The position numbers were made by a program, and so were the translations under genes. Shown here piece by piece: positions 7,134-46,155 of a stretch of DNA of 64,000 bases; the first letter of the stretch is position 1, and every line of letters begins with the position of its first letter. This stretch comes from Secundilactobacillus similis DSM 23365 = JCM 2765 (GTDB lineage: Bacteria; Bacillota; Bacilli; Lactobacillales; Lactobacillaceae), in contig NZ_BBAD01000006.1 in assembly GCF_001311075.1 (NCBI RefSeq), forward strand, positions 1-64,000, written 5' to 3'. The notes under the pieces are model-generated. The model had not been told where the DNA came from and made no database searches. It saw nothing but the letters and a program-made list of their open reading frames with translations.

Positions 7134-7160
7134 ATCGACGGCCGGAGAATTACCGGAAAC

Positions 7161-28290: not shown

Positions 28291-28577
28291 ACCCGTTTCT
28301 TAAAGCCATTTCAATGTGCCCAATATAGGTGATGAATCAAAACGAACTTGTGCTGGAGATGAGCACAGCTATCCTTGTAACTATACCAATAATTGACAGC
28401 CGTTATAATACATTCAAAAAAATGACGATATTTTAGGTGTGAACCGACTTTTGCTAGTTGGTGTGTAATTAGTTGATAATCTATACCAATCGCATTAAAC
28501 TACGCTGTGAAAGTTGGGGAAGTCAGGTGTTTGTGTTTGTAGCGAAAATGGCCAAGATTCGAGGAGGAGGAATTGGC

Positions 28578-31500
28578 ATGAGTAAGAGAGCGGTTCGCGG
28601 CCGTGCCAAGCTAATAAAGGACACGGCCCAGACAAAAGTTTGGTATAAAATGTATAAAAATGGCAAAAATTGGATTGTGGCTGGAATTGCAACCACTGCA
28701 CTAGGTTTAGCCGTTTCGACTGTCCCTGCCAAGGCTGCCACTAGCGACACAGCTGATCCGGTAGTTAGTGCACCAGCACCATCAACTACCAGTGGAACGG
28801 GGGACGAGCAAACTGCAACCTTAACGACACCGGCGGCTGATGCAACTGCGGCACCACAGCAACCGGTCGCAGATTCAACGCCCCAGCAAGCGACTGCTGA
28901 GTCGGCACAAACGACGACATCATCTGAAATTTCTGCTGATTCAACATATCAACCGGTGGATAGTGCCCCAGCAACACCAGCTGCTTCAACGGATGCGAGT
29001 TCGACTGCTACCACGAAACCGGCTAGTGATTCAGCAAGTACAACTGCCACCACGCCAGCCAGTGGTTCAGGCGCCGGGGCGACAGCTACCCAATCTCAAT
29101 CAGAAAGTACGGCACCAGACCAAACGCCAACTATTAAACAGGAAACATCCGGTAATGTAAATTCGACTGATAACAGTTCAACGACAACAGCAGCTTCTGC
29201 TTCGGCGGCAACGCAACAATCAATTGCGGCTGCAGCACCATCGACAGCAGCTACTAAAGCCGTATCAGCAGCAGTACCGGCCGCTCCATTGGTCATGTCG
29301 TCGGTCATTATTCCGGCGACACAGGTCTCGGCGGTTAATCCTGGATCAGTAACGATGACCAATACGGCGCTGCAAGAAGCAATCGCTATCTATAAGGATA
29401 AGACCAACGCTTCGACAACGGCTGCTGGACTGACTCAAGTGGGTGGACCCGGGACAAATGCTTTTTACACGAGTCCAACGGTAGCGATTGAATTTTCAGG
29501 GACACCATTCAGTGGTAATATTGCCACTTATCCCAATGCGCTTTCAACCGAGGTCATTAACGGTCAAATTTGGGTCAAGGGCGTGACCATCTCGGCCACC
29601 AATACGCGTACCGTGAATGGCAAGGTTGAACTGACACCGGCATCAGTGATCACTGTCACGGTGCCTAATCAAAATCTCGCTATGACGGCACATCGTCGAC
29701 TTTCCAACAGGCATCCGGTGGGGTCCCATCCTTATTTATTGAATCCGATGCCCCCGGCGCTAGTCCGAGCGTTACGGTGTTGACAAATATTGGTGACGGT
29801 TTTCCAAAATCAATTTCGATTAATGCAACGACCAAGACTGCGACAGTCGGCAACGCCGATACGATCACGGTGTCGACCAGTCAATATTACACGACAGGCA
29901 CGTCACCAACCGCAGTATCCGCATCTAATCGGGTCTACGATGGTGTATTTACAATTGAAAATATTCAGCTCAAACCAACCGTTACATGGAACCCATTTAG
30001 TTCAACCGAGTTAGCTGCATCTGGAACTGGAACTGCTGTCGGCGATACGATCACGATCAAGTCTGATGATGGCAAGAAGTCGGTCACGGCGACAGTTGGC
30101 AGTAACTGGACTTGGAGCGCCGATTTAGCGGCAGCTGGGTTTACGGCAACTGATGGCATCTACGTGGTTGAAAGTAATAACATTGGCGATATTCCAGGGG
30201 CCGCTGCTGCCTTACAATATGGTCAAGATACCAGAACCATTGTTTATATGGATGCTTTGACGGGCGCTGAAATTAAGTCAAGTCAACCAACGTCGATGAT
30301 CGTACAGGCTGGTGGCACCCCATCAGGCGTTTCAGCTAATAGTGCCACCATTACGCGAGGAACGTATACTCAGGCTAACGGTGCAGCTGCCGTCTTTCCA
30401 GCAATTGCTAAAGAAGATCTGGAAAAAATCGATGGCTACTTACCTGCCACAAGTGGACTAACGACGATACCAGGTCTTTTAAATGGGGACGTTAAACAGT
30501 ATGTTCAACTTTACCCGGCAGTCTATACTGTTGACCCAGATACGGTTGAGGATCCCAATAACCCAAGTACTAACGTATCACCAAAGGATCCCAATACCCC
30601 AGTTAAACCGGGTGATCCAAATTCACCTGTCTTTCCGCCAGGGGTATCTGATAATAATTTAGAAACAATCGTACCGGAGATCCTGCACTACCAAGACGGT
30701 GAAACTGGTGAGACGGTGGCGTCCGATTATACGACATCGCTAGACTTTAAACGGGCTGCCAGTGTTGATTTCAGCAAGACTGACAGCCAAGGTAATCCGC
30801 AGGTAACTTATACGGATTGGCGTCCGGTGACGACTGATACGTTTGCGGAAGTTACCAATCCAGTGGTTCGGGGTTATGTCACGAGTAAGCCAGTTTATCC
30901 AGAAGTGCCAGTTGACGTGACCCAAGAGAACCCGGCATATGAGGATACGGTTAACTATTATCCAGCCGAGGTAATTGTTGGACCGAAAGAACCAGTTGAG
31001 CCAAGTGATCCAACTGGACCTAAAGATCAGGGCGATACTGTGACGGATAAGCCTGATGATCCGCGGGTCTACCCAAATGGGGTCACTAAAGATGACCTGA
31101 ATAAGTCGGTTGACCGGACGATCCACTACGTCAGCGCGTTGACTGGTGAGACACTGGCGCCAGATGAGGTTACACCGGCTGAGTACAGTCGGGTGGCGTT
31201 GATTCGGTTTGATCAACTAGATGAAAATGGGAACCCAACTGTTTACTATCAAGACTGGAAGGGCCCAACGGCTTACCCAGATGCGACTAGTCCAACGGTT
31301 ACGGGTTACTTTACCAAGACCCCAGTCGTTGAAGGCGTTCCGGTAACGGTCAATAGTGCCCCATCAGAAGTGACGGTTGTTTACTATCCAAATGAGATTG
31401 TTGTTGGTCCAAAAGAACCGGATCCAGACAAACCAATCGATCCAAGCAATCCGACCGGGCCAAAGGACGAAGGCGACAAAATCGTTCCAGGTGATGACAA

Positions 31501-34500
31501 CAGCCCTGAATATCCGGCTGGGGTTACAGCAGAAGACCTGAATGGTCAGCGAACACAAACGATCCATTACGTTGATAAGGCCACGGGTGAAAAGGTTGCT
31601 GAAGACAATACCGCAATCATTGAATACACCCGGACTGGTCTCGTTGATGTTCAAAAGGGGACCGTATCGTATACTGATTGGACACCGGCACCCGGAACGT
31701 TTGCGGCAGTTGCTAGTCCGGTCGTTGAAGGCAAAATTACCTTTGAACCAGAAGTTGCTGCCATGGATGTGGCTTATACTGATACGGATAAAGACATCAC
31801 TGTCTTCTACTATCCGGCCGAAATCGTTGTTGGGCCGCATGATCCAGATCCTAATAAGCCAATCGATGAAACTAATCCGACTGGACCAAAGGATGAAGGT
31901 ACCACGATCGTTCCGGGTGATGAGGATGGCCCTAAGTATCCGGGCGGTTTGACGGCCGATGATCTGAATGCCAAGGTAACGCAGACGATTAACTACGTTG
32001 ATGCGGTAACGGGCGATCCAATCGCACAAACTAACAATGCTGAATTGGCCTTCACCCGGACCGGAACGCTGAACGTTGCGACCGGTACGGTGACATATGC
32101 TGATTGGCAGCCAGTGACAACGGATGAGTTTGCGGCAGTTACTAGTCCAACGGTGGCTGGGTATTATCCAAACGTTAGCGTGGTGCCAGCGGTAAAAGTA
32201 ACTAACGAGACCGCGCCAATCGTTGAGGTCGTTAAATACTACCCAGCTGAGATCATTGTCGGACCAAAAGATCCTGATCCTAATAAGCCGATCGATCCAA
32301 GTAACCCAACTGGGCCAAAGGACGAGGGGACGGACGTGGTACCAGGTGACGAGGATAGCCCTAAGTATCCAGGTGGTTTGACGGCAGACGACTTGAACGT
32401 TACTAAGACCCAAACGATTCACTATATCGATAAACTTACTGGTGAGACGGTCGCCAAAGACAACGTGGCAACGCAGGCCTTCGAACGCAACGGTATCGTG
32501 GCCGTTCAGACCGGGCAAGTCACGTACACGGATTGGACGCCAGCGACTGCCAATTATCCGGCAGTCGTCAACCCAACCGTGGCGGGTAAGATCGCATTGA
32601 ACCCACAAGTTGATGCCCAAGCGGTGACAGCAACGGATGAAAATACTGATATGACAGTATTTTACTATCCAGCTGAAGTGATCGTTGGTCCGCATGACCC
32701 TGATCCAGACAAGCCAATCGACCCAAGCAACCCAACCGGGCCAAAAGATCCAGGAACGTCGATCGTGCCAGGTGATGAGGACGGGCCGAAATATCCTGAA
32801 GGCGTGACGGCAGATAAGCTGAATGCAAAGATCACCCAAACGGTCCACTATGTTGATGCAACAACTGGTGATTCGGTTGCAACTGACGTGACTGCTGAAT
32901 TGGCCTTTACGCGAACTGGGACGGTGAATGTGGCCACTGGGGAAGTGACCTACTCACCTTGGGTAGCGACGACAACTGATCAATTTGGTGAAGTTGTTAG
33001 CCCAGACGTTGATGGCATGTTTACTTTGGTCAAGGCAATTCCAGCGGTTACGGTCACTGGTGACAGTCAGCCAATCGTTGAAACGGTTAAATACTACCCT
33101 AAAGAAATCATCGTCGGGCCAAATGAACCTGATCCAAACAAGCCAATCGACGAGACTAACCCAACTGGGCCAAAAGATCCAGGAACGTCGATCGTTCCCG
33201 GTGATGAGGACAGTCCTAAATATCCGGGTGGCGTGACGGCCGATGATTTGAAAACGTCAGTAACGCAAACGGTACATTATATTGATGCCGCGACTGGACA
33301 ACCAATTGCGAAAGACGCAACCGCTGAATTAGCGTTTACGCGGACTGGGACAGTTGATGTGCAAAACGGCACCGTGAGTTACGCTGACTGGAAAGCGGTC
33401 ACGACGGATGTATTTGGTGAAGTCGTCAGTCCAACGGTCGATGGGTACTATCCTTTGGTCACTAGTATCCCGGCGACAACGGTGAAAGGCGATAGTCAAC
33501 CGATCGTTGAGACGGTCAAATACTATCCTGATCAAGTTATCGTGGGACCAAAAGACCCCGATCCAACTAAGCCGATCGATCCAAGTAACCCAACTGGGCC
33601 AAAGGACGAGGGGACGGACGTGGTACCAGGTGACGAGGATAGCCCTAAGTATCCAGGTGGTTTGACGGCAGACGACTTGAACGTTACTAAGACCCAAACG
33701 ATTCACTATATCGATAAACTTACTGGTGAGACGGTCGCCAAGGACAACGTGGCAACGCAAGCCTTCGAACGCAACGGTATCGTGGCCGTTCAGACCGGGC
33801 AAGTCACGTACACGGATTGGACGCCAGCGACTGCCAATTATCCGGCAGTCGTCAACCCAACAGTGGCGGGTAAGATCACATTGAACCCACAAGTTGATGC
33901 CCAAGCGGTGACGGCAACGGATGAAAATACCGATATGACAGTATTTTACTATCCAGCTGAAGTGATTGTCGGACCACATGATCCAGATCCAGACAAACCA
34001 ATCGACCCAAGCAACCCAACCGGGCCAAAAGATCCGGGGACCTCGATCGTACCAGGTGATGAAGATGGGCCGAAATACCCTGAAGGTGTCACCGAAAAGG
34101 ATCTGAACACCATCGTGACGCAAACGATTCACTATGTAAACGCTGGTACGGGTGAGACGGTTGCACCAGACAGTGCTGCAACGTTAGCCTTTACCCGAAC
34201 CGGGACCGTTAATGTTGCGACTGGAACGGTGACCTACTCACCATGGACACCAGTGACGACTGATCAATTTGCGGCGGTGACGAGTCCAAGTGTGGCAGGT
34301 CTGTATCCAATCGTAACGACAGTCGATGCTGTTACGGTCACCGGCGACACAGCGCCGATCGTCACGACGGTCAAATACTATCCTGCTGAGATCATCGTTG
34401 GGCCAAAGGACCCAGATCCAAACAAGCCGATTGATCCAAGCAACCCAACGGGACCTAAAGATCCGGGAACGTCAATCGTTCCTGGCGATGAGGATAGCCC

Positions 34501-35256
34501 TAAGTATCCGGGTGGCTTGACTCAAAGTGATCTTAACCAGATCATTTCACGGACGATCAATTACTTGAATCCGGATGGCACTAAGGCGGCGGATAGTGTG
34601 ATCCAGCTCGTGCACTATGAGCGTCAGGCGACTTTGAACGTTGCAACGGGAGCGGTCACTTATGGTGATTGGACAGTTGTTGATTCGAATGTTTTCCCTG
34701 CAGTTTTGAGTCCTACGATTCAAGGGTATACCCTGATTTGGCAATTGTCGCGCAATTAGCGGTTGCACCAACGGATGCCAATACGATCGTTAACGTGCAC
34801 TACACGGCTGTTCCGGGAACTTCTACGCCAGAAACTTCTACGCCAGGAACGTCTACACCGGGAACTGGGATTGAAACACCAACCCCAGGTGGCGGTAACG
34901 GTTCAGGTGGTAACGAGACCCCAGGCGGCACGACACCAGTTATTGACACACCAATAGTAGATACTGGTGGTACTACTGGCGGTGGTGCCAGCGCGGGTAC
35001 CGGTGACAACGGTGGTAATACCAAGACTGGCGGAAGTGGTGGTCAAGTCACAGCGACACCAACGACACCAGGCGCGGTTAAAACACCAGCGGCAACTGGG
35101 ACTGTTACAGTCGGTCAGTCACCAACATCAAATGAACAGGCTACTTTGCCACAAACTGATGAGGCTAATCAGGCCACATCACTTATCGGGTTACTTTTGA
35201 TGAGTGCGCTGGGGTTGACTGGCTGGAAGAAACGCAAGAAAACAGATTCTAAGTAA
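28578..35256 (+). CDS. LPxTG cell-wall-anchored mucus-binding protein with ten Muc_B2-like repeats, two frameshifts
   Basis: Giant surface adhesin, about 2,226 aa after repair. It has a KxYKxGKxW-type signal (WYKMYKNGKNW, then a hydrophobic stretch ending KAA), a Ser/Thr/Ala-rich region to about residue 230, a non-repetitive N-terminal domain to about 680, then ten repeats of about 142 aa (428 bp). Each contains a TQTIHYVD-like strand, TGETVA, TRTGTV, YTDW and PTGPKDEG linker. The tail is Pro/Thr/Gly-rich, then LPQTDE, a hydrophobic helix and KKRKK for sortase anchoring. One T is missing near 29682 and one C near 34732; both repairs restore obvious continuity (LAYDGTSSTFQQASGG; QGYTPDLAIVAQLAVAP). 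The start at 28578 follows GAGGAGGAGG. Expected role: adhesion to mucus or host glycans. Confidence 0.9.
32282..33962 (+). repeat. Near-identical repeat pair inside the adhesin
   Basis: The tracts 32282-32678 and 33566-33962 differ at only about six positions noticed by eye, while neighbouring repeats differ widely. Offset 1,284 bp, exactly three repeat units, which points to recent duplication or gene conversion. Confidence 0.8.
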
Positions 35257-35366: not shown

Positions 35367-35706
35367 CAAAAAAACGGCCACTCAGGGGAAAGTGGCCGTT
35401 TTTTGCGTTATTTAGTTAGGGAGATGTTGCTAAGAAGATGTTGCTAAGAGAGAGGGGTATTTCAGTTAATTAGGGGTGTTGTTCAATTCAGTTAAGTTGG
35501 TTTGGAAAAGTTTGATTTGAGAAATCGTGGGAGCTAAATTTGCACTTCTTGGTTATTTGAGGGGAATCATTGCCAGCAAGCGTTGCTGGTGACGGTGGAC
35601 GGTGACGGCGCTAATGGTCGCGACCGTGATCACGGCGGGGATAGCTGCAAGTAGTATTTTCATAAACAGACTTCCTTTCAGTTGACTAGGATTGAATCTC
35701 ATCTAC
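35367..35706 (-). ncRNA. Small-RNA-like unit 1, encoding a 36-aa peptide
   Basis: Transcript predicted from a promoter at 35714-35768 to a strong terminator at 35367-35404 (AACGGCCACT / AGTGGCCGTT, loop with CCCC, then seven T). It contains the peptide gene 35553-35663. The 3' part is C-rich with ACCCCTAATTAAC, TACCCCTC and CTCCCTAAC, like the C-rich loops of units 2-4. The role is inferred from structure only. Confidence 0.6.
35553..35663 (-). CDS. 36-residue hydrophobic peptide
   Basis: Begins MKILLAAIPAVITVATIS, one membrane helix, then a basic tail with VHRHQQRLL. GAAAGGAAG lies about eight bases upstream of the ATG. It sits inside small-RNA unit 1. Unit 4 has the same upstream site and a degenerate relative (MPTVITV). 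Size, single helix and basic tail resemble type I toxin-like or small membrane peptides; this is only resemblance. Confidence 0.5.
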   Translation of the reverse strand: MKILLAAIPAVITVATISAVTVHRHQQRLLAMIPLK

Positions 35707-35713
35707 AAGAACC

Positions 35714-35768
35714 ATGATAGTTCGGGGAGCTTAAAGCGGACTTAACTGGTGCTTAAGTGAAGCTTAAG
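35714..35768 (-). promoter_or_regulatory. Hexamer-array promoter of unit 1
   Basis: On the minus strand: CTTAAG-N5-CTTAAG-N5-GTTAAG-N5-TTTAAG, then ten bases and TATCAT. Exact 11-bp period. Confidence 0.75.
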
Positions 35769-35794
35769 TTGAATTTATCAGTGGCGGATTAAAA

Positions 35795-36023
35795 AACAAA
35801 AATCACCGGCAACGTCAGGGGAGGACGGCCGGTGATTTTTAAGTTATGTCAGAAATTGATCACACCCGGTTGCGGATGAATGGGGGCTTGGTGATTAGGG
35901 AACACCAAGTTGTTGTTAGTTTAGGGGTTTGTTAAGAGTGGGAGTTGCAACCGATTCACCAACCTAGTTAGGGGGCTAGTTTGGCGAGGGTGATCAATTT
36001 AGAGAGGTAAAACCTCATCTACA
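35795..36023 (-). ncRNA. Small-RNA-like unit 2
   Basis: About 225 nt on the minus strand. A hairpin at 35958-35985 has stem CGCCAA / TTGGTG, CTAG / CTAG and loop CCCCCTAA; a second hairpin is CTTGGTG / CACCAAG with loop TTCCCTAAT; a closing stem is CGGTTGC / GCAACCG. The terminator ACCGGC / GCCGGT has loop containing CCTCCCC. The three stems differ from unit 3 by paired changes, so RNA structure is selected. No ORF. Confidence 0.72.
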
Positions 36024-36029
36024 AGTAAC

Positions 36030-36084
36030 ATCATAACGGGTGTAGCTTAAGCAGAACTTAATGGCAACTTAAGCCTAGCTTAAA
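36030..36084 (-). promoter_or_regulatory. Hexamer-array promoter of unit 2
   Basis: TTTAAG-N5-CTTAAG-N5-ATTAAG-N5-CTTAAG, ten bases, TATGAT on the minus strand. Exact 11-bp period and the same hexamer-to-(-10) distance as units 1, 3 and 4. Confidence 0.78.
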
Positions 36085-36105
36085 GTGAGGTTGCGTTATA
36101 AAATA

Positions 36106-36328
36106 CAAAAAATCACCGGCAATGTCAGGGGAGGACGGCCGGTGATTTTTTAGTTATCTACAAATTGATCAATTCCCGGTCGCTGATGAATGGGAGACTT
36201 GATGATTAGGGGGCATCAAGTTGTTGGTTTGGGGTTGTTAGTGGGAGTAGCGACTGTTTCACGATACTAGTTAGGGGGCTAGTGTCGTGAGGGTGATCAA
36301 TTTTAGAGAGGTAGGAACCTCATCTACA
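36106..36328 (-). ncRNA. Small-RNA-like unit 3 (paralogue of unit 2)
   Basis: Same plan as unit 2. Hairpin CACGA / TCGTG with CTAG / CTAG and the identical loop CCCCCTAA (36267-36282); CTTGATG / CATCAAG with loop CCCCCTAAT; closing stem GTCGCT / AGCGAC; terminator loop CCTCCCCTGAC. Stem bases change in pairs relative to unit 2 while loops stay constant. Confidence 0.72.
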
Positions 36329-36334
36329 AGTTAT

Positions 36335-36389
36335 ATATTAAGGGGTGACGCTTAAGCGGGACTTAAATTTGGCTTAAGTGAAACATAAA
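36335..36389 (-). promoter_or_regulatory. Hexamer-array promoter of unit 3
   Basis: CTTAAG-N5-TTTAAG-N5-CTTAAG, ten bases, TAATAT; a degenerate fourth unit TTTATG lies upstream in register. Confidence 0.72.
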
Positions 36390-36420
36390 ATGGGGTTCTT
36401 GACGGTTATATAGCCTAAAC

Positions 36421-36533
36421 GTGTGAAAAAATCAGGTCCCGGCCAGGTAAGCAGGTAAGGACGCAGACCCCAGACCCGGGACTCTACGTCCTTACCTGCT
36501 TATCTTCTGGGACCTAACCGATTTTTTTCACAC
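36421..36533. repeat. 113-bp imperfect palindrome between units 3 and 4
   Basis: Ends GTGTGAAAAAATC and GATTTTTTTCACAC; inner arms AAGCAGGTAAGGACG / CGTCCTTACCTGCTT; GGTCCC / GGGACC between. On the minus strand it reads TCGGTTAGGTCCCAG, reminiscent of the HVE-A left stem. It may act as a bidirectional terminator, or be a degenerate HVE member. Confidence 0.65.
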
Positions 36534-36544
36534 TCTCTCACCAA

Positions 36545-36830
36545 AATCCCCCAACAGCATGGGAGTCCTGTTGGAAGATTTTTCGGGTTTATGTTGTTTG
36601 TTTATATATATGCTTGAAAAGGGTGTTACTCGTCATTTTGATTAAGGAAAGCCGACTAGTTAGGGGGCTAGCCGACCTCATCATGTTTGGGGGTATTACT
36701 TGCTTGAACCTTTAAAGATTCATTACCGTGATCACCGTTGGCATTAGGGGGTACCGGTGATGACCACTAGGCTTCATGGGCAGGGCTTCCTTTCAAATTG
36801 GATTGATTAAGTTGTTGTTTGCTTGTTGAT
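36545..36830 (-). ncRNA. Small-RNA-like unit 4
   Basis: Minus-strand unit with the conserved hairpin GTCGGCTAG / CTAGTCGGC and loop CCCCCTAA (36656-36671), a second C-rich hairpin ATCACCG / CGGTGAT with GTACCCCCTAATG, and a terminal hairpin CCAACAG / CTGTTGG with loop GACTCCCATG followed by GGGGATTTT (a weak terminator). A 21-codon frame after GAAAGGAAG looks like a decayed version of the unit 1 peptide. Confidence 0.6.
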
Positions 36831-36836
36831 GAGTCT

Positions 36837-36891
36837 AATATACGGCTGGTAGCTTAAAGCGAACTTAAAAGGAAGTAAAGGAAAAGTAAAG
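36837..36891 (-). promoter_or_regulatory. Hexamer-array promoter of unit 4
   Basis: CTTTAC-N5-CTTTAC-N5-TTTAAG-N5-TTTAAG, ten bases, TATATT on the minus strand. The two distal units deviate but keep the 11-bp period. Confidence 0.72.
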
Positions 36892-36898
36892 GGTACAG

Positions 36899-37132
36899 AA
36901 CGTGAGGAGAAGCGGTTAAAGGGCGGCGTGTAAGGGGAATCCCAAGTGAAGCTACCGTTTTTGGTAGATTTACTTGGGATTCCCCTTACACATAGCCCTT
37001 TGCTTCTCCTCGCGCATTTCGGCGTGGTGTCCAGAAAAAAGTAACGAAGCCGAAATTAGACTATAACCTAATAGCGGAAAAATTCAGTCAAAAGTACGCC
37101 GAAAACAACGTAATAGCAATGAACGTCGCCAC
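36899..37132 (+). repeat. HVE-A element copy 6 (complete)
   Basis: AACGTGAGGAGAAGCGGTTA left flank, arm AAGGGGAATCCCAAGT with loop around CCGTTTTTGG, complement, then CACATAGCCCTTTGCTTCTC, GCGCATTTCGGCGTGG and distal ACGCCGAAAACAACG ... GAACGTCGCC. Confidence 0.78.
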
Positions 37133-37227: not shown

Positions 37228-38226
37228 TCACTTCTGATACTTTCCCAACGCCGCCATCTGCGTCCCAATCCGGTCGCCCCACTCCTCACGGTTATGGTGA
37301 GCCAGTTCGTTAACCACAACCTCTGGCTGTACGCGGTCCACCACTTTCTGAATAGCCGACGTCGTAAACGGAATGTGCTGATCAGCCTTACCCAACCGGT
37401 TGTAGACTTGCGCAAACTGGTCGAGGTACGACTTAGAGTGGTCTAACGGTACGTTTTTAGCAACTTCCGCAAAGAAGCCGTCATGGGCGGCCACGCTACA
37501 GTTTAAATGCATGACCTTAATGTACGGAATTAGACTCTCGTTTCGGTCGAGAATCTGCATGATGTAATCACAGGCATCGTCTTGGTTCGTGATGGCTAAA
37601 TTCGTGTTGCTTAAATGACCAGTATCCAAAACGATGCCGGTATTAGGAATATTTACCCGGTCTAATAGTTCTAGTGGTGTTTTGGGATTCAGCAAGTTCA
37701 GCTCACCCACGGTCAAATTTTCAAATAGAAAGTCGTAGTCCATATACTCACCATAGCGGTCGTAAAGGGTATTGGCCATCTCCACGGTACCATCGATGAT
37801 TTGCTGGTTCTTGTAGCTGATGTCGGCCTTGTCGTAGGCGTAGAGTTCGTCGAGGGTAGTGTCGCCAACGTGGTAGACCACGTATTTAACCCCTAACTTA
37901 TGGGCTGCAATCAACTGTTTACCGTAGACTTCAATCAGTTCTTCGCGGTTCTTGGCTTGGAAAAATTCGGTCCAGGCAGCTTCGGAACCGTACTCCTTCA
38001 TTAAGGTTTCGGTGTCGTTTTGCCATAGCGGTAGCCAGTTGGCGTAGAAACTGAGGTGCAGGCCGGGAATCATGTCGGCTTTCATCTTAGGTGAGAAATC
38101 ATCGCCAACTAAAATGGCCTCGATGCCGTTGCAACCATACTGCTGGTAAAAGTGTTTGAGGTCGTCAGTGCTGTCGAATTCGTCAACGGACCAGTTGTTG
38201 ACGGGCATGTTAATGAGATAGTCCAT
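37228..38226 (-). CDS. TIM-barrel sugar phosphate isomerase/epimerase-like protein
   Basis: A 332-residue AP-endonuclease-2-like TIM barrel. Metal-site style segments: YVVYHVGD, DYDFLFENLTVGELN, GIVLDTGHLSN, IKVMHLNCSV and EVVVNELAHH supply the His/Glu/Asp ligands usual for this superfamily. I cannot name the substrate. It lies downstream of the sulfoquinovose operon but behind a terminator and with its own cre-like promoter, so it may be separately controlled while serving the same pathway (for example an epimerase for related sugars). Confidence 0.72.
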   Translation of the reverse strand: MDYLINMPVNNWSVDEFDSTDDLKHFYQQYGCNGIEAILVGDDFSPKMKADMIPGLHLSFYANWLPLWQNDTETLMKEYGSEAAWTEFFQAKNREELIEVYGKQLIAAHKLGVKYVVYHVGDTTLDELYAYDKADISYKNQQIIDGTVEMANTLYDRYGEYMDYDFLFENLTVGELNLLNPKTPLELLDRVNIPNTGIVLDTGHLSNTNLAITNQDDACDYIMQILDRNESLIPYIKVMHLNCSVAAHDGFFAEVAKNVPLDHSKSYLDQFAQVYNRLGKADQHIPFTTSAIQKVVDRVQPEVVVNELAHHNREEWGDRIGTQMAALGKYQK

Positions 38227-38245
38227 GTGAGGTCTTCCTTTTTTT

Positions 38246-38261
38246 GTGTAATCGTTTACAA
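38246..38261 (-). promoter_or_regulatory. cre site upstream of the TIM-barrel gene
   Basis: TTGTAAACGATTACAC on the minus strand matches cre at all but the last position. It lies about 20-35 bases before the start codon, a position where CcpA would repress. A LacI-family operator is also possible. Confidence 0.65.
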
Positions 38262-38305
38262 TTTAGTATACACGAGCGAGGTGAGGTAAGACGAGTAAAT
38301 TTAAA

Positions 38306-38350
38306 GCAAAAGTACCGCTAATTTTCGACCTCGAAAATTAGCGGTACTTT
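38306..38350. terminator. Terminator at the end of the sulfoquinovose operon
   Basis: AAAAGTACCGCTAATTTTCG and its complement with a four-base loop, flanked by A/T tracts, three bases past the last stop codon of the operon. Confidence 0.88.
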
Positions 38351-38352
38351 TA

Positions 38353-39689
38353 TTAATCCGTATAAACTTTAACCGGAATCTGCAACAACCGACCAAGAGC
38401 CTTCAAATCATCAACGTAATCGCCATAAACCAGCGCAAAGTGAGATTCGTAGCCTTCTTCAACGAATTGGTCAACCAGTTGTTCAACTGGCGCGTCCATT
38501 TGGACTCGACCAGAAGCACCGTTGAATTGTGGTTCAACGTCTAACACGTTGCCGCGAGAAATTGCTAATTCGTAGCCGTCAAGTTCGGTGTAGTGGACCC
38601 GTAAGAAGGTCACTTGTCCAGGCTTGAGGACCATGTTCGGGCTAACGGGCACTTTGCGGTTTGGGTGAACGCTGCTTCAACGCCGTACTTGGGGTTGGCA
38701 AGTGAGTAAGCGCCGTAGTCGTGCCAAGTGGTCATCGTGTTATCGCTTGGATCCATGCTGGAGAAGTCACCCAAGAAGGTGGCGGCGTGGTCGCTGGTCA
38801 TCTGTTGCAGGATGTACATCGACAACGCACCGTGAATGTCACATTCCATTGCAGTCGGCAACTGTTGGTCACAGAGCTGGGACCAAACGGCGCCGGGGGC
38901 ACTGTGGTATTTGTCGAAAAAGTCTGGCCAGCAGCGTGACGCTAGGGCACCTAAGTGGTCTTGGGCTTGGTACTGCTTCATCAGGGTGGCGAACTTCACG
39001 AAGCGGATGGTTTCATCACCCTTGGCGTCAAGATCCTTGAAGTTGGCGATGGCGTAGTCCAGTTGTTCCTTGTAGACGGCGGGTTCTAAAGCGTAGGCTT
39101 GGTCGAAACAGTCGTCGATGTTGTAGTGGATCAGGTGGGTGCCAAAATGCTTCTGAAGTTCAGCAGCGTTGGCATCTGAGAAGAAGAATCCGGGTGGAAA
39201 GGTGCCAACAACGCCAATGTTGAGGTGGGCGACTTCGTCCTTGATCTGAGCGGCCTTCACGAAGCTATTGATCTTATCGTGAACGGCCGGTTCGTCAGGG
39301 TTGCCGTAGATGTGGTCGAACTGGTGGTGTTGGCTGGCTAAATAGTTGCCAGAGCTCATGATGCCAGTTAACGCGTTGAGGCGTAACCAACCGTGAATGC
39401 TGGGTTCGTGGGGTGCCAACAATAAGATTGGGGTGTTGGGGTACCATTCGTGGACCAGTTTGATGAACTCGGCATCCGTAAAGGTCGTGTTATGGAAGAT
39501 GATGCCAGCGAAATGTTGATCACGAACAGAGGCCAGATAGCTGCTCAGTTCTGTTGGGTCGCCTAATGAAGCTTCTGGCGCAACCAAATCGTATTCGGAT
39601 AATTGCTGTTTGGTGCTTTGCATGATTTTTTCAGCGGTGTCGGCGTCAAATTTACGACGGACGACGGGGAGGTAGAGAATTTTGCTCAT
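38353..39689 (-). CDS. L-fucose/L-arabinose isomerase-like protein, frameshifted
   Basis: About 445 aa after repair. The N-terminal Rossmann-like half (YLPVVRRKFDADTAE, GIIFHNTTFTDAEFI, NIGVVGTFPPGFFFSD) and the C-terminal half (ATAMECDIHG-like TAMECDIHGALSMYIL, LGDFSSMD, WHDYGAYSLANPKYG) follow the FucI/AraA-like fold. One A is missing near 38655; restored sequence reads FTQNRKVPVSPNMVLKPGQV. Last gene of the minus-strand operon, 21 bases after the DUF4867-like gene. It is a candidate isomerase for sulfoquinovose or a related 6-deoxyhexose derivative. Function is inferred from fold and context only. Confidence 0.75.
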
Positions 39690-39710
39690 AAGTGTGCGCT
39701 TCCTTCTAAG

Positions 39711-40385
39711 TTAGTCTGTAGTAAGTGGGGTGATGACGGTGTTGGTGCCGGAAAGCCCAGCAAACGCGCCGTTATTCACCATTCGGGTATTTTCAGGGTG
39801 GGTGATGAGCCATTTGTTGTGTTGGAACAGCAGGTCGTCAGGTTGCCGGTCGCTGTTCAGCGGCGTGTTGGTGTCGGCGGTGAGCACCACTAGGCATTTG
39901 AACCCGGATTGCCAAACTCGGATGGGGGCAAAATGCAGGGTGGTTGGATACACTTCGATGGCGGTCCCGGCTGGCACGAAGAAAGCGTGGGCCTTGTCCG
40001 TCGTCATTGTCTTGCCATCGAGGTCCTTACGGTGGGCAAGGAACAGCACTAAATCCGTAGTGGCTAAATTCAGTTCGGAACAGTTGTGCCATTCAAAGGC
40101 GTTGATCCGGTCACTGTTACCGTTGCAGTAACCGATTTCGATGGCTTGTTCACCGTAGAAGTCGCGGCCGATGTCGGCGCGTTGTGCGGCCGTTAAAAAT
40201 TGCGGGTCGTCGCGCACGTAGACGTTCTTTTCGGCGGGAATCGCTGTGTTGGCCGCCAACGTTTCAGCGAGTTCATTTTGGTGCGGAAGGGTGACCACAC
40301 GGCCGTACAGTGCGAAGGCGGGGTCGGTGACTAACGTGATTTTAGTATCAGGGTTAGCTTGTTGCAGTTTCGTTAAAGTGATCAT
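39711..40385 (-). CDS. DUF4867-like protein, candidate sulfoquinovose isomerase
   Basis: 224 aa, cupin-like. It contains IEIGYCNGNSDRINAFEWHN, CSELNLATTDLVLFLAHRKD, AFFVPAGTAIEVYPTTLHFA and GFKCLVVLTADTN, which I recognise as DUF4867-type; the His/Glu residues in EWHN, EVYPTTLHF could bind a metal. From memory, proteins of this family occur in transaldolase-type sulfoglycolysis clusters of Firmicutes and have been proposed as the SQ to SF isomerase. I am not certain of that assignment. It lies between the transaldolase and fucose-isomerase-like genes. Confidence 0.68.
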   Translation of the reverse strand: MITLTKLQQANPDTKITLVTDPAFALYGRVVTLPHQNELAETLAANTAIPAEKNVYVRDDPQFLTAAQRADIGRDFYGEQAIEIGYCNGNSDRINAFEWHNCSELNLATTDLVLFLAHRKDLDGKTMTTDKAHAFFVPAGTAIEVYPTTLHFAPIRVWQSGFKCLVVLTADTNTPLNSDRQPDDLLFQHNKWLITHPENTRMVNNGAFAGLSGTNTVITPLTTD

Positions 40386-40435
40386 GGCTTACTCCGTTTC
40401 CGTGTTGTCCCAGGCGTCTTGGAAAATCTTCAAGC

Positions 40436-41053
40436 CTAGTCGGTGTAAGGGTTGTAGAAGCTGTTTTCGTAAACGGCCAGTGAACAGGTCACGATGTCGG
40501 CACCGTAAATGGCAGCTTGTTGGATCTGTTTGGCGTTGCGGATGGCGGCCACGATGATTTCGGTCTTGAAGTTGTAAGTCCGGTAGATGTCGACCACGTC
40601 CTTGACGTAGTTCATGCCATCGTCGCCGTAATCTTCCTTCCAGCCGACAAATGGCGAAACGTATTTGGCACCGATTTTACCCGGCATGATCGATTGGGCT
40701 GGGGAGAAGACCAGCGTCATATTCGTGCGGATGCCGGCCTGTTCGAGGCGGCGAGCGGCGATGATGCCCTGTTTGTTGGTTGGAATCTTGATGACGAAGT
40801 TGGGTGATAAGGCGCTAATCTTGGTGGCCATTTCAACCATTTCATCAGCGGTTTCCAAGTGAGGGTTGATTTCTACGGAAACCGGGAAGTCGGGCTTGTC
40901 AGCCACATAGTTAGCGATGTCGGTAATCGCCGTCATGAACGGCTTGCCGCTGGCCATAATGTGCTTGGGGTTGGTGGTGACACCGTCAAAGCCGTATTGT
41001 TCGTAAGCAAGCTTGATTTCATCTAATTTGGCACTATCTAAAAAATACTTCAT
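40436..41053 (-). CDS. sftT: Transaldolase of FSA/TalC type, probable 6-deoxy-6-sulfofructose transaldolase
   Basis: 205-residue small transaldolase. The start MKYFLDSAKLDEIK and GVTTNPKHI are classic for FSA/TalC proteins; the Schiff-base Lys lies in FVIKIPTNKQGI, followed by TNMTLVFSPAQ and AKYVSPFVGWKEDYG. In an operon with a sulfoquinovosidase and an aldehyde dehydrogenase, its likely reaction is transfer of a dihydroxyacetone unit from sulfofructose to glyceraldehyde-3-phosphate, giving fructose-6-phosphate and sulfolactaldehyde. The family call is firm; the sulfo-substrate is inferred from context. Confidence 0.85.
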   Translation of the reverse strand: MKYFLDSAKLDEIKLAYEQYGFDGVTTNPKHIMASGKPFMTAITDIANYVADKPDFPVSVEINPHLETADEMVEMATKISALSPNFVIKIPTNKQGIIAARRLEQAGIRTNMTLVFSPAQSIMPGKIGAKYVSPFVGWKEDYGDDGMNYVKDVVDIYRTYNFKTEIIVAAIRNAKQIQQAAIYGADIVTCSLAVYENSFYNPYTD

Positions 41054-41069
41054 GATAAAATTCCCCTTT

Positions 41070-42493
41070 TTAATTAGTCATTTGAACTGAGTTAACTTTT
41101 TCATCACCGCGACGGTTCAGCAGGTCCTTGACGATGGCGCCGTAGCGCTTTTCAGTCAGGGAGTAAGCCCAGTACATCAAGATGATGGTGGCAATCGATA
41201 AGACGGCCGAGTACAGGAACATCAAGCCACGAATCCCCAGTAGGGCGCCGGCGGTTTGCGTTTGACCAGGGACGTAACCGACCCAGGCGAGCACGACGCC
41301 AGGCACGAAGCCGGCAATGGCTTGAGAGAGCTTTCGGAAGTACAGGAAGAAGGAGTAGGTCATCCCTTCGGAACGGATGCCGGTCTGCCATTCGCCATAT
41401 TCCACACAGTCGGAAACGAGGGCCCAGTTGAGGGCGCTGGTAAAGCCGTCGCAAGGTAGGCGATAGAGGTAAAGAACACGAACAGGAAGGTGTTGTCGGC
41501 CATGAAGAAGCCAAGAATGTCGGCGATGGCCCAGATGGCGCAGCCCAGCATGTAGACGTATTTTTTATCAATGCGTTTGGTTAAGATTGGGGTTAAAAAT
41601 ACCGAGACGAAGACCATCCCGATACTGAAGAAGCCCAACCATGAGATGGCGGCAGTATCTTTCAAAATGTACTTGCAGTAGTAAACTTGAACGGCTAGCT
41701 TGAGGTTAAAAGCCGAGAAGGTGAACAGGTTAACGATGCTCAAAGTGATGAGCGGTTTATTTTTCAGCAGTGATTTGAACGCTGCTTTAAGGTCCTTTTT
41801 ATTGACCTTCTGCTTCGCGGGCGCCGAGTAGTTTTCTTTAATGTTGGCGTAGGAGATCCACTGGCAGATGACGCCGAGAGCTGCGAAGACCACGACAGCC
41901 ACGGTGTAACCGGTCTGTTCGTTTGGCAGCAGGTTGACGATCGGCATAAACCCAATCGTCGCCAGCATCAAGCCTAGGTTAGACCCCGCTTGACGCCAAG
42001 AGGCCAGTTCGGAACGTTCCTGACTGTTTCGGGTCATCGTCGGGATCATCGAACCAAACGGCACGTTGGAGATACTGTAACAGGTCCCAAACAGCATGTA
42101 GGCGAGGTAGGCCCAGATCAGTTTACCGGTCACCGAGAAGTTTGGCGTGGTAAAGTTGGCGATCAGCAGCAGGCCGAGTGGAATCCCGGCCCACAATAGG
42201 AACGGCCGGAACTTCCCGCGTTTACTAATGTTGGTTCGGTTATCGATCCAGGTCCCCACTGACATGTCAGCGAAGGCGTCCCAGATTTTGGCAACCAGAA
42301 AGACCGTCCCGGCGGCTGCGCTGGGAAGCCCGACTTGGTCGGTAAAGTAGTTCAATAAGTAGAGTTGTCCCATATCAAACAGGAAGTTATTCCCAACGTC
42401 GCCCATGGCGTAACCAATTTTGTTACGCAGGGTGACGGTGCGGGGCGCAATGTCGTTTTTTTGAGTTGCGGCTTGGGTTTCTGTAGAATCCAT
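41070..42493 (-). CDS. GPH-family sugar:cation symporter, probable sulfoquinovose(-glycoside) importer, frameshifted
   Basis: About 474 aa, 12 membrane segments, melibiose-carrier type. Signatures: NKIGYAMGDVGNNFLFDM, WDAFADMSVGTWIDNRT, KRGKFRPFLLW and the late GEWQTGIRSEGMTYSFFLYF. It resembles E. coli YihO/YihP. One G is missing near 41450 (restored: SIAYLGDGFTSALNWALVSD), giving normal length. Located between aldehyde dehydrogenase and transaldolase genes. Substrate is inferred from operon context. Confidence 0.85.
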
Positions 42494-42620
42494 TTTGCTA
42501 AATCCCTCCGATTGCTAAGTAGTTTATGTATCCCGGCGAGCTGAGGTCAAACAACGCAACAGTTGTCTCACCTTAGCTCGTTGGGATCGAGCTAAGAATC
42601 AAGTGGTGCTGAAAAGGTGA

Positions 42621-43991
42621 TCAGCCTAACGCAATCATCTTTTGGTTAGCGAATTCGTATAACGCGAGGTCGCTCATTTCACGGCCGTAACCGGAGTTCT
42701 TGACGCCACCAAACGGTAACTGTGGGTAACCGTTGGAAGGTTGGTTCAAGAAAATCTGACCGGTTTCGAGTTGTTCGGCGACCGCCTGTGCTTCGGCGGT
42801 GGTGCCAGCGTAAACGGCACCGGCTAAGCCGTACTGCGAACTATTCGCCAGTTTAATGGCGGCTTCCGTTGACTTAACCACGTGGATCTGACCCACGGGA
42901 CCGAAGAATTCGTCATCGTAGGTTGGGTTGGCGGGGGTCATGCCCGTTAACAGCACCGGCTTGAAGAAGTTGCCGGGCTGATCGGTCACGGCACCACCGT
43001 CAACTAGGACCTTGGCACCGTTGGCAACGGCGGCATCAACTTGGGCTTGAAGCCCAGTTTGAGCCACTTTAGAAGACAGGGGCGCAATCGTGGTACTGTC
43101 CAGCTTCGGATCACCAATTTGTTGGGCCTTGAAGGTCGCAATCATTTTAGTGGTAAATTCCTCGGCGACGGCTTCATGGACGATGTAGCGTTTGGCTGAG
43201 GTACAGACTTGGCCAGCATTTCGCAGACGTGAGATGGCGCCATCCGCCACGGCTTGATCAATGTCAGCGCCGGGGAGGACGATGAAGGCGTCGTTGCCGC
43301 CAAGTTCTAGAGTGGATTTGGTTAAGGCTTGGGCTGCTTCCATTGAAACGATTTTGCCGGCTTTGGTGGAACCGGTGAGGGCGACACCCTGGACGCGGTC
43401 GTCAGCGATGATTGCGGCGGCCTGATCGTTAGTGATGAACAGGTTCTTGAAGGCGCCATCGTCACCGATAGCGTCCCAAACCAGCTTTTCAAACAAGTCC
43501 GCACACCCCGCAACGATGGCGGCGTGTTTTAAGATCACTGGATTGCCCAACAAGAAGTTCGGCGCAAACACCCGCATCACTTGAGTATAAGGAAAGTTCC
43601 AGGGTTCGATTGCCAGCACGATGCCAGTCGCATCGTAGCGTAAAAGGGCTTGTTTGTTGTCCAAATACGTATAGGGTTTTGGCTGCAACGCCTGTGGCCC
43701 GTGATCCACGTAGTACTGCGCGATATTAGCGGCGGCGTTGGCTTCACCGAGGCCTTCGCGGTAGAGTTTGCCCATGTTAGTCATGGCCGTTTCGGCAAGG
43801 TCGTCAACGTGGTTGCGGAAACTGTCGGCGATTTTTTGAAGTTGGGCTGCCCGTTGCGCTACCGAATCGTTGTAGTGGTCGTGGTAGTATGTATCGCCCC
43901 GCTGTAAGGCGGTTGCGATGTCGGTATCAGATGCATTGGGATAGTCGATAACCGACTGTCCAGTATAGGGATTCGTCACGTGATAAGTCAT
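42621..43991 (-). CDS. NAD(P)-dependent aldehyde dehydrogenase, probable sulfolactaldehyde dehydrogenase
   Basis: A 456-residue ALDH superfamily enzyme similar to succinate-semialdehyde dehydrogenases. Catalytic Asn in EPWNFPYTQVMR, cofactor VALTGSTKAGK, catalytic Glu in TLELGGNDAF, nucleophile Cys in NAGQVCTSAKR. The ATG overlaps the sulfoquinovosidase stop by four bases, so the two are translationally coupled. In this context it should oxidise 3-sulfolactaldehyde to sulfolactate. That substrate is inference; general ALDH function is certain from motifs. Confidence 0.88.
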   Translation of the reverse strand: MTYHVTNPYTGQSVIDYPNASDTDIATALQRGDTYYHDHYNDSVAQRAAQLQKIADSFRNHVDDLAETAMTNMGKLYREGLGEANAAANIAQYYVDHGPQALQPKPYTYLDNKQALLRYDATGIVLAIEPWNFPYTQVMRVFAPNFLLGNPVILKHAAIVAGCADLFEKLVWDAIGDDGAFKNLFITNDQAAAIIADDRVQGVALTGSTKAGKIVSMEAAQALTKSTLELGGNDAFIVLPGADIDQAVADGAISRLRNAGQVCTSAKRYIVHEAVAEEFTTKMIATFKAQQIGDPKLDSTTIAPLSSKVAQTGLQAQVDAAVANGAKVLVDGGAVTDQPGNFFKPVLLTGMTPANPTYDDEFFGPVGQIHVVKSTEAAIKLANSSQYGLAGAVYAGTTAEAQAVAEQLETGQIFLNQPSNGYPQLPFGGVKNSGYGREMSDLALYEFANQKMIALG

Positions 43992-46004
43992 TTTGAAGCT
44001 CCTATCTGTTGAAAGAGATCCGCAAAGGCTGAGTCCTTGCGGTAAAAGACTGGAATTTCACCCAAGGGTGCTGGAACGGTGTGGGTGCCACCGGTGTAAG
44101 GCCGTCCTGACCAGAGGTGGACCCACTGATCATCTGGCAAGTAAACTGACCAACTGGTTTGGTTCGGTTGGCTGACGGGGGCAACCAGTAGGTCACTGCC
44201 AAACAAGAACTCGTCTTGAACGTCGTAGGCATGCGCATCGTCCTCGTAGTGCATAAACAGTGGCCATTGTGCGGGTAACCCGCGGTGCGCGGCTTCGGCG
44301 ATCACGGCGCGGCGGTATGCAGTGAGTCGTTTGAAGACTTTCGTATATTGCGCTAAGTGATCGATGGCTTCGTCATCTTCGTAAACTTGGAAGTTTTGGT
44401 CAGGTCGGTTGCCTTCGTGGGACCGCATGATTGGCGTAAAGGCGGCCATTTCGGCCCACCGCATAAACAGTTCCTTCGACCGCACGTTACCGTAGAGGCT
44501 GGTGTAGCCACCGATATCGCTATGGCTTAGGCTGTTACCGATGATGCCGCTTGAGAGGGCGGCGGGCACGGTTGAAATCAGCCCATCGTCTTGGCTCCAG
44601 TTGACGCTTTGATCACCAGCCCAAAGTAGCGGCGTGTATTTTTGACTACCAGCAGCGCCGGCACGCATGAAGTACATCAGTTGGTCGGCTTTACCGGATT
44701 CTTGCACCGCTTCGTAGTTGCACTGGGCCCAAAGCACTGGCCACTTGTTGTGCATCATCAGTGGATCAGAATGGTCGTACAGCACGACGTCGGTGGGTAA
44801 ATACTCGCCGAAATCGGCCATCCAACCGGTGATGCCAGCGTCAATCAACTGGTGCTTGATGATGCCTTTAAACCACTCGAAGGCGTCGGGATTGGTAAAG
44901 TCAACGACGCCACAGTGAAATTCACCGAAATCAACGAGGTAAACGCCACCGTCCTGTGTTTGAGCGAAGTAGCCCTTGGCGGCCGCGGCTTGGAAGGATT
45001 CGGCATCGTTAGCGATGTAGGGTTGATGTACCCCAAAAATTGAATGCCGTCCTGTTGCCAAGCCTGAATCTGATCGGTGAGGTGCGGATAAAGTCTTTCG
45101 TCCGCGCGCCAATCCCAGAAGAGGCGTTTGCCAAAGCTGGTCATGCGGATGCCTTCCCAGTCCTGACACCAGAGACCGGCGATTTGAACGTCGTGGGCCT
45201 GGAGTTTATTTTTAAGGTCGTTGACGCGTTGCGTGCCACCCTGTAAGCCCAAAATGATGCCGTTGTCGGTCCAAGTCGGTAAGTTGGCGTTGCGGCCCAT
45301 GAGCGCTGTTAGTTTGGTCGCGAGTTCTAAGTAGGTTGGCGCTTGGTCAAACACTAACTTAGTCGGCACGCCCCAGAATTGCAGTTCGTGGTAGTCATCG
45401 TTTTGAAAATCAAAGTCAGCGTAGGTGTAACTCTCCACGTGGCAGAAGTAGTGTTGCGTGGAAACAAACGTTGCTTCCGGATAGTTGGTGGTGTAGTAGT
45501 CGCCACCCGCGTGATTTTGATCCGCTTGGAAGGTGGTCAGGGTGTGCTTGTTGCGGCCAATTCCGGGTTCGGATGACCAGAGCGGGAAGTGGTGCCCGCG
45601 TAAGTTGAAATATGAGAGTTGTTCACCAGCCCGTAGACCTTTTCGTCTGACTGAGCCGTGAGCCGCAACCAGAGGCGGTTCCAACCATCAATGAGTAAGG
45701 TTGGCGTCACTTGTAGGCGGTCGTGACTATCGATGGTGAAGTTAAGACTAAGGTAGTCGCGGCCATCGAACCCTAACGTCAGGGTGATGTCATCTTCAGC
45801 GACCTGCTCATCAGTGATGGTGAGCGGAATCTTAGTTTGTAAGTTATCCTTGATATCAAAGTTGCCCCGGTACATATCGATGGCGGCGGTGCCGCGACCC
45901 AGAAATGCGATCGGCGACCCATCGGTTTGCTTGAAGAGGGTGAGGTCGTGATAACTGACCTCGTGGCGACTGAGAATCAAGTGTTGTTGTTGCGCAATTG
46001 TCAT
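43988..46004 (-). CDS. yihQ: Sulfoquinovosidase (GH31, YihQ-like), two frameshifts
   Basis: Hydrolyses sulfoquinovosides such as sulfoquinovosyl-glycerol. Repaired length is about 672 aa versus about 678 for E. coli YihQ. Strong matches to YihQ as I remember it: QDWEGIRMTSFGKRLFWDW (the KR...W residues bind the sulfonate), GWMADFGEYLPTD with the catalytic Asp, MRAGAAGSQKYTPLLWAGDQ with SVNWSQDDGL next, HSDIGGYTSLYG, and MRSHEGNRPDQN. One G is missing near 45632 (restored VYGAGEQLSYFNL) and one C near 45034 (restored YINPYIANDAESF). First gene of the operon, no signal peptide, so cytoplasmic. This gene identifies the operon as sulfoquinovose-directed. Confidence 0.92.
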
Positions 46005-46122
46005 GGATCAGAAACCTCCGTTATGGCCACGGCATTAAGTTCGTGGTTAAGTGTTAGGTGATACGGTGTTAAGTTTGGATTTAAAAATTACACATGTTTC
46101 GCAAGTTGTTTGGTATGCAAAC

Positions 46123-46155
46123 ATCTTATGGCTGGGAACTTAAGTGGAGCTTAAA
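46123..46155 (-). promoter_or_regulatory. Promoter of the sulfoquinovose operon with paired hexamers
   Basis: Minus strand: TTTAAG-N5-CTTAAG, ten bases, TAAGAT, the same geometry as the four small-RNA promoters at 35.7-36.9 kb. The 5' leader is about 110 nt and contains further TTAAG-like motifs read on the plus strand (46030-46085). Confidence 0.7.

Follow-up and report, generated by a model that had tools for sequence, protein, structure and literature searches.

What are four tandem transcription units doing beside an adhesin gene in a lactobacillus, and what would switch them on? The question is raised by a stretch of 64,000 nucleotides (nt) from Secundilactobacillus similis DSM 23365 = JCM 2765 (contig NZ_BBAD01000006.1, positions 1 to 64,000), here called the window, in which four minus-strand units lie at 35.37-36.87 kb, each with a promoter and a terminator-like hairpin recognized by direct reading and repeat analysis. 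The array is flanked on one side by a convergent gene for a mucin-binding adhesin (open frames 28473-35256, with Muc_B2 repeats and an LPXTG anchor) and on the other side by a 39-nt inverted repeat (36918-37001). A first-pass annotation, made from the sequence alone, had proposed that the units form a family of regulated RNAs complementary to Shine-Dalgarno (SD) sequences, analogous to the cia-dependent small RNAs (csRNAs) of streptococci.

The view in 2010 was that streptococci have the two-component system CiaRH and that other bacteria apparently do not, and lactobacilli were described as apparently lacking hfq (both in passages of PMC3091779); the passages on CiaRH in PMC12735751 and PMC11326707 mention it for streptococci only. 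In an excerpt of a Lactobacillus review (PMC11753222), ciaH and ciaR are listed with other genes that may take part in biofilm signalling, so that the name of the gene has been used for lactobacilli before. By titles and the beginnings of abstracts, no lactobacillus csRNA or CiaR-dependent RNA was found among the matches listed in the open full-text literature.

The answer that we consider probable is that the array encodes csRNA-like RNAs controlled by a two-component system of the CiaR type, carrying C-rich anti-SD loops, and that some of them also encode a membrane micropeptide. Its structural part and the connection between promoter and regulator are well supported by the sequence comparisons presented below.

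CiaR-type promoters and their candidate regulator

The motif TTAAG-N6-TTAAG-N10-TAnnnT precedes 4/4 units as an exact match, always on the minus strand: at 35714..35745 in unit 1 (-10 element TATCAT), 36030..36061 in unit 2 (TATGAT), 36335..36366 in unit 3 (TAATAT) and 36837..36868 in unit 4 (TATATT). Units 1 and 2 have four perfect TTAAG boxes with an 11-nt period (35730-35767 and 36046-36083, minus strand), unit 3 has one variant box and unit 4 two clear boxes. The four units with hexamer-array promoters and terminators that had been annotated at first are therefore confirmed by the exact motif and by the terminator-like hairpins read behind it. According to part of PMC3091779, the CiaR promoter consists of NTTAAG-N5-TTTAAG with a -10 element ten nt downstream. 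All four units follow this layout, except that the second box is CTTAAG in units 2 and 3; C as the first base of the second box is also recorded there among streptococcal CiaR promoters. When four-box TTAAG arrays were picked regardless of the -10 element (n=6, in 301 genomes), 6/6 had TAnnnT at exactly N10. A scan for consensus sigma-70 promoters found one site, at no unit start, against 2.3 expected, as it should if the TTAAG boxes replace the -35 element. The four-box pattern, searched over all genome contigs, occurs in at least 119 stretches from many phyla, which were taken as chance and not used as evidence. TTAAG arrays were also observed in a Streptococcus sanguinis genome (L181) and in one Streptococcaceae contig (L122).

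Fifteen genomes of the genus contain 56 matches to the motif and none to its reversed control. A 77-amino-acid (aa) C-terminal stretch of the regulator from the own genome was searched in the same genomes and found in one copy, at 87-100% identity, in G000, G001, G002, G003, G005, G008, G010, G013 and G014; the remaining matches, among those listed, do not exceed 40% identity. Besides the own genome, eight carry a copy, seven of them at full length and G010 with a copy cut at the contig end. The nine genomes with the orthologue hold 54/56 motif matches (15 in G000, 1 in G001, 8 in G002, 6 in G003, 4 in G005, 10 in G008, 7 in G010, 1 in G013 and 2 in G014) and the six without it hold 2/56, both in G007 (none in G004, G006, G009, G011 and G012). 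By hand arithmetic, the chance that 9/9 regulator genomes fall among the ten motif-bearing ones is 10/5005.

The regulator of G003 finds its best match in S. sanguinis 2908 at 53% identity, the next being at 39%. This best match is an open frame with the helix VVEVYVSKIRKKL, followed by a histidine kinase, and VVEVYVSKIRKKL is published as the recognition helix of CiaR in S. sanguinis SK36 (in a passage of PMC3091779); the corresponding helix of the genus orthologue is VVEVYMSNLRKKI. In the reverse search, the S. sanguinis protein identifies seven full-length orthologues of the genus at 51-54%, where other full-length regulators reach at most 37%; its identity to the interrupted own copy is 62.5% for one half and 52% for the other. 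The genus regulator is thus, as reciprocal best match, orthologous to S. sanguinis CiaR. Among the NCBIfam matches listed there is no CiaR-named model.

Structure and paralogy of units 2 and 3

Reading, repeats and folding predict noncoding RNAs for unit 2 (35797..36023, minus strand) and unit 3 (36107..36328, minus strand). The two are paralogues built on one plan. A 5' hairpin lies close to the predicted start, hairpin arms are enclosed by an outer stem around TTGATCA/TGATCAA, and the terminator hairpin, whose loop contains CCTCCCC, is followed by a T run (about 35840-35797 in unit 2 and about 36151-36107 in unit 3). The body of unit 3 presents CCCCCTAA in apical loops; its centroid is a three-way junction and the minimum free energy (MFE) structure differs in the middle. 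Both RNAs fold far better than shuffled sequences, with MFE z scores of -7.92 for unit 2 and -8.50 for unit 3 (0/200 shuffles as good, each); the scores are -2.11 for unit 4 (3/200 shuffles) and -2.25 for unit 1 (3/100).

The centroid of each paralogue was applied to the other, after a gap had been placed manually in the outer stem of their alignment. The 63 pairs of unit 2 are found in unit 3 as 55 unchanged, 4 compensatory, 1 one-sided and 3 broken; conversely, the 71 pairs of unit 3 give 58 unchanged, 4 compensatory, 1 one-sided, 6 broken and 2 gapped pairs in unit 2. Substitutions placed at random break a mean of 15.7 and 13.5 pairs, respectively, and 0/5000 randomizations are as low in either direction; as many as four compensatory changes appear in 6/5000 and 10/5000. 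These repeats and pairing tests bear out the paralogy with paired stem changes that the first-pass annotation had claimed, and CTAGTTAGGGGGCTAG, as stated there, is identical in units 2, 3 and 4. Its statement that the loops of units 2 and 3 are fixed has to be corrected, because unit 3 has CCCCCTAAT as its second loop where unit 2 has TTCCCTAAT.

The peptides of units 1 and 4

The predicted RNAs of units 1 and 4, delimited by reading, repeats and folding (35369..35707 and 36545..36830, minus strand), both begin with GAAAGGAAG, then ATG, and contain open reading frames (ORFs) of 36 and 21 codons behind an SD sequence. The unit 1 RNA would be a small-peptide mRNA with a C-rich 3' part; its ORF (35553..35663, minus strand) encodes the 36-aa peptide MKILLAAIPAVITVATISAVTVHRHQQRLLAMIPLK, whose hydrophobic stretch, judged by eye, is probably a membrane span. 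The unit 4 RNA is C-rich and includes a CTAG-CCCCCTAA-CTAG hairpin; its 21-aa product MKPSGHHRYPLMPTVITVMNL (36712..36777, minus strand) resembles, by eye, a degenerate version of the peptide from unit 1 and has PxVITV in common with it. Terminator-like hairpins followed by a T run end both units (about 35404-35369 and about 36584-36545, minus strand). A mechanical terminator scan, restricted to loops of 3-8, lists that of unit 4 as the sole one on the minus strand.

The unit 1 peptide is clear in 5/15 genus genomes, G006 having it only at E 0.066, and the five sequences align with nine invariant columns. Among 397 genomes of the family it occurs at E<=1e-15 in five, all of this genus, and a sixth match, at 7.9e-4, lies inside a 474-aa frame. 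Between pairs of peptide genes, changes are commonest at third codon positions (e.g. 14/24 differences). The gene precedes a GNAT-like gene, recognized by eye, in G002, G003 and G008. Pfam has no match for the window peptide and one below the cut-off for that of G008.

Genes and RNAs behind the motif in the genus

By our own reading, the 56 motif sites of the genus precede 22 C-rich RNAs, 4 further short-peptide genes, 26 protein or probable protein genes and 4 unassigned sequences. The C-rich RNAs comprise five of class A, six of class B, five with the unit 1 peptide, three with other short peptides, and window units 2-4. Class A RNAs (G001, G003, G008, G013, G014) lack a peptide of the unit 1 type and form 2-7 hairpins with C-rich loops. 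Class B (L240, L247, L252, L285, L289, L296) consists of predicted RNAs of 144-165 nt from six genus genomes, at the same locus by eye, with a core stretch resembling TTACT(A/G)GGCAAA and a TCCCC-loop hairpin; its members hold just one or two C-rich stretches, and the class is a candidate conserved small RNA. All regulator-bearing genomes (9/9) have one or more C-rich RNAs that do not belong to class B, and in G001 and G013 such an RNA stands behind the only motif. When the pairing comparison was extended to class A, broken pairs were low in 5/6 comparisons (14-57 of 3000 randomizations) and reached 247/3000 in the sixth.

The proteins behind the motif include six alike membrane proteins that resemble acyltransferases by eye (a start of 70 residues matched nothing in Pfam), five AMP-binding-like proteins (for one of them, a start of 70 residues scored under the Pfam cut-off), and, with one representative of each tested, three dicarboxylate symporters, two histidine phosphatases and two glycoside hydrolases of family 31. 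A second motif-driven micropeptide family, of 39-43 aa and with a (K/M)-PPV-LxEDP stretch, was observed in three genomes (L069, at G000:C7:32359-32412; L253; L287), with little C-rich RNA behind.

C-rich loops and their possible targets

Hairpins with a CCC loop are more numerous than in all 150 shuffles in 7/22 RNAs (L228, L237, L248, L255, L281, L282, L283); as many are reached by 8/150 shuffles for L235, 5/150 for L256, 3/150 for unit 2 and 13 to 59 of 150 for nine others. CCC nucleotides in units 1-4 are predicted to be unpaired in 83-92% of cases, against 52-80% in shuffles. One hairpin, ctattCTCCCAaatag, is common to L228, L235, L237, L255 and the G008 peptide RNA, and L281 has it with one pair less. 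A peptide ORF and C-rich hairpins on one RNA are clear in G003 and G008, where the peptide RNAs carry five and six C-loop hairpins; the combination is weak in window unit 1, which has one, in the terminator.

The C-rich segments were compared with the 43 window genes that have an SD sequence. The terminator loop pairs at a mean of -10.0 kcal/mol with start regions and -7.9 at internal sites. The adjacent adhesin was considered as a target and rejected: the terminator loop and the adhesin start region GGAGGAGG give a pairing of -16.5 kcal/mol, and at least 3/43 genes pair better with that loop.

Motif and regulator in the wider family

In the family survey of 397 genomes from 40 genera (coded g1, g14 and so on), the G003 regulator has matches at E<=1e-55 in 218 genomes and 27 genera, not all of which are necessarily orthologues, since G006 passes (1.3e-56) with listed C-terminal matches of 32-35%. 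At E<=1e-90, which we took as a strong match, the regulator is present in 51 genomes, the own genome not included, and 47 of these contain the motif (8/8 in g1, 19/19 in g14, 15/15 in g23, 4/4 in g22 and 1/1 in g36). Within g22, the motif occurs in 4/4 genomes with the regulator (16 matches) versus 5/21 without it (5 matches, one each). In 13/15 regulator genomes of g23 it directly precedes the regulator gene on the same strand, the exceptions being G036 and G258 (11 loci from 10 genomes were read in sequence), and in g4 it stands beside the regulator gene, divergently, at four loci, at one of them about 560 nt away. The recognition helix reads VVEVYMSNLRKK(I/L) or VIEVYMSNLRKKI across the 29 regulator loci read.

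A hand-picked look, not a count, at 20 fetched and 5 other loci outside the genus found the motif followed by short C-rich RNAs in G081 (a tandem pair), G253 (in tandem), G238 and G297, and by short peptides whose tail is C-rich in G309, G228, G258, G036 and G212; further sites stand before plain protein genes.

A model for the array and its alternatives

As an explanation of these data, we propose that a phosphorylated CiaR-like regulator would bind the TTAAG direct repeats that stand in for the -35 box and would activate the four promoters. Units 2 and 3 would then give noncoding RNAs of about 225-235 nt, and unit 1, together with the decayed unit 4, an RNA also encoding the small membrane peptide. 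In these RNAs the C-rich motifs (UCCC, CCCCCUAA, CCUCCCC) would be kept unpaired in hairpin loops and linkers, most likely pairing with the SD regions of target mRNAs and blocking their translation; several loops on each RNA may serve several or multivalent targets. The steps from regulator to promoter and to RNA are suggested by genome comparison, and the step from RNA to target by analogy with RNAIII and LhrC, whose UCCC or C-rich loops bind mRNA start regions (passages of PMC4132741 and PMC2837412).

Several results weigh against this model. With an automatic alignment and MFE structures, 10 pairs are broken from unit 2 to unit 3 (0/2000) and 15 in the other direction (797/2000); the automatic alignment misplaced the outer stem by one base, and the hand-placed gap and the centroids favour the result reported above. 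DNA searches with units 2 and 3 found neither sequence in the 14 other genus genomes. In class B, 3/8 pairing comparisons are low (0, 1 and 55 of 3000), one is indifferent and 4/8 go in the wrong direction, and the near-identical peptide RNAs of G010 and G002 are not significant (1100 and 64 of 3000). The covariation among homologues predicted by the first-pass annotation thus holds for units 2 and 3 and for most of class A, and is mixed in class B. The CCC-loop count is weak for unit 4 (10/150) and unit 3 (13/150) and not significant for unit 1 (64/150). An anti-start-codon element (CAT, then CTCC, TCCC or CCCC at 3-9 nt) occurs in 10/22 RNAs, being present in units 3 and 4 and absent from units 1 and 2, at no fixed position. 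The pairing with SD sites that had been anticipated is visible among the 43 window genes as start regions only mildly better than internal ones, a general complementarity that any C-rich RNA would show. Concerning the regulator, its gene in the own assembly is split by two frameshifts (into 105 and 77 codons), no motif lies near the regulator gene at 7 genus and 5 g14 loci, and the regulator-bearing genomes of g32 (0/2) and two of those of g33 lack the motif, which family-wide is found in 147/397 genomes, with the reversed control also scoring in many. The adhesin (28473-35256) and glycoside hydrolase (43988-46004) genes are likewise split into overlapping open frames, which together with the regulator suggests indel errors or wide decay in the assembly; an assembly error is a possible cause of the split regulator and neighbour genes.

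The peptide might instead be the conserved product of the locus, the C-rich 3' parts and units 2 and 3 being merely stabilizing or decayed remains. The occurrence of the peptide in 5/15 genus genomes with its excess of third-position changes, the decayed ORF of unit 4, the short peptides at other motif sites and the chance-level C-loop count of unit 1 all fit this explanation. We nevertheless hold it to be unlikely, because units 2 and 3 have no such ORF and yet keep their structure under pairwise constraint, and the five class A RNAs form 2-7 C-loop hairpins without such a peptide. Alternatively, the RNAs could be sponges, with C-rich loops capturing other RNAs or an RNA-binding protein and not mRNA start sites; several alike loops per RNA, up to seven, would suit such a function, which seems to us quite unlikely given that the motif resembles the mRNA-binding loops of RNAIII and LhrC.

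A different doubt concerns the identity of the activator. The same RNAs might be driven by another OmpR-family regulator, as the own genome has 12 matches to OmpR-type DNA-binding domains besides a frameshifted CiaR-like gene, and in g33 the motif is frequent in six genomes whose regulator has 56-58% identity and missing from two whose regulator has 64%. The genus-wide presence and absence, the recognition helix and the motif before the regulator gene in g23 all point to the CiaR-like protein, and we give this alternative little credit. Finally, interspersed hairpin repeats beside and between the units could indicate a chance or unexpressed repeat cluster; after the folding and substitution tests and the motif statistics, this is very improbable.

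The CiaR-controlled array, as we prefer to read it, may belong to a regulon extending through the family, with a csRNA-like network of comb-like RNAs bearing up to seven anti-SD hairpins and of dual-function micropeptide versions; this wider proposal is tentative and somewhat doubtful. If it is true, a single envelope signal would trigger the peptide along with a multivalent antisense response.

Other features of the array and the window

Between units 4 and 3, outside both, lies an interspersed hairpin element (about 36401..36537, no strand assigned) found by repeat search, with about 30 further matches in the own genome (33 in total for the query) and 18 in G008. No Rfam model reaches its gathering score in or near the array or exceeds it at three related loci; below that threshold, most matches are eukaryotic miRNA models that fit near-perfect hairpins. 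DNA searches of plasmids and phages gave no matches.

A fifth exact CiaR-type motif of the window (46123..46154, minus strand) stands upstream of the frameshifted glycoside hydrolase 31 gene, and in G008 (L249) the motif also precedes a similar N-terminus. The window gene belongs to a minus-strand carbohydrate cluster (37228-46154) with TIM-barrel and isomerase-like proteins, DUF4867, transaldolase, MFS and aldehyde dehydrogenase genes, which presumably resembles sulfoquinovose transaldolase pathway clusters. A TPP riboswitch lies at 7040-7143 (Rfam RF00059, 67.1 bits).

Comparison with known systems

The closest parallel is given by the streptococcal csRNAs. Both systems have NTTAAG-N5-TTTAAG promoters with a -10 element at 10 nt, an orthologous regulator with a similar recognition helix, and several paralogous RNAs with unpaired SD-complementary motifs and a terminal terminator; tandem copies are also reported for S. 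sanguinis (part of PMC8186281). The lactobacillus RNAs differ in the frequent placement of their C-rich motifs in the apical loops of several hairpins, in the peptide that some of them encode, in the four boxes of some promoters and in their host, which is not a streptococcus. They are also longer and more structured than most csRNAs, with 144-538 nt by predicted ends against the 50-218 nt tabulated in PMC8186281. If csRNAs are defined as small, noncoding and terminated, units 2 and 3 fit, being slightly longer than those tabulated, and units 1 and 4 carry ORFs. The complement CAU of the start codon, found in 53/61 published csRNAs according to a passage of PMC3091779, is inconsistent here, although the SD-complementary part is present. 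The initial analogy is supported in part, by the promoter layout, by the orthologue that tracks the motif and by the C-rich RNAs in 9/9 regulator-bearing genomes; it had missed the peptides of units 1 and 4, the greater length and structure of the RNAs and the restriction of an anti-start-codon element to fewer than half of them. Since related C-rich RNAs stand behind such promoters in each examined regulator-bearing related genome, this control circuit, so far described for streptococci, seems to reach beyond them and to take an unusual form in lactobacilli, where orthologous regulator, promoter code and SD-complementary RNAs go together. For a group that is used in industry, a regulator with a name, a promoter that can be searched for and a set of candidate RNAs are thereby at hand, and one can compare how nature fitted one transcriptional circuit with different RNA bodies.

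Listeria LhrC1-5 are likewise multicopy RNAs under a two-component system, with redundant UCCC or CU-rich sites in stem-loop, linker and terminator, and LhrC binds the mRNA of the adhesin LapB, impeding its translation (as described in part of PMC4132741). The differences are that LhrC is noncoding and its regulator is LisR; the sequences were compared through Rfam only. LhrC presumably has an Rfam model, and no match to it at gathering score was found in or near the array. Staphylococcus aureus RNAIII, which is under Agr quorum-sensing control, differs in that the C-rich part of window unit 1 is little structured, and the likeness is one of description. With RNAIII the peptide-bearing members would share the dual function, a small peptide together with C-rich loops that bind ribosome-binding sites (in a passage of PMC2837412), and they could represent a new case of the RNAIII type.

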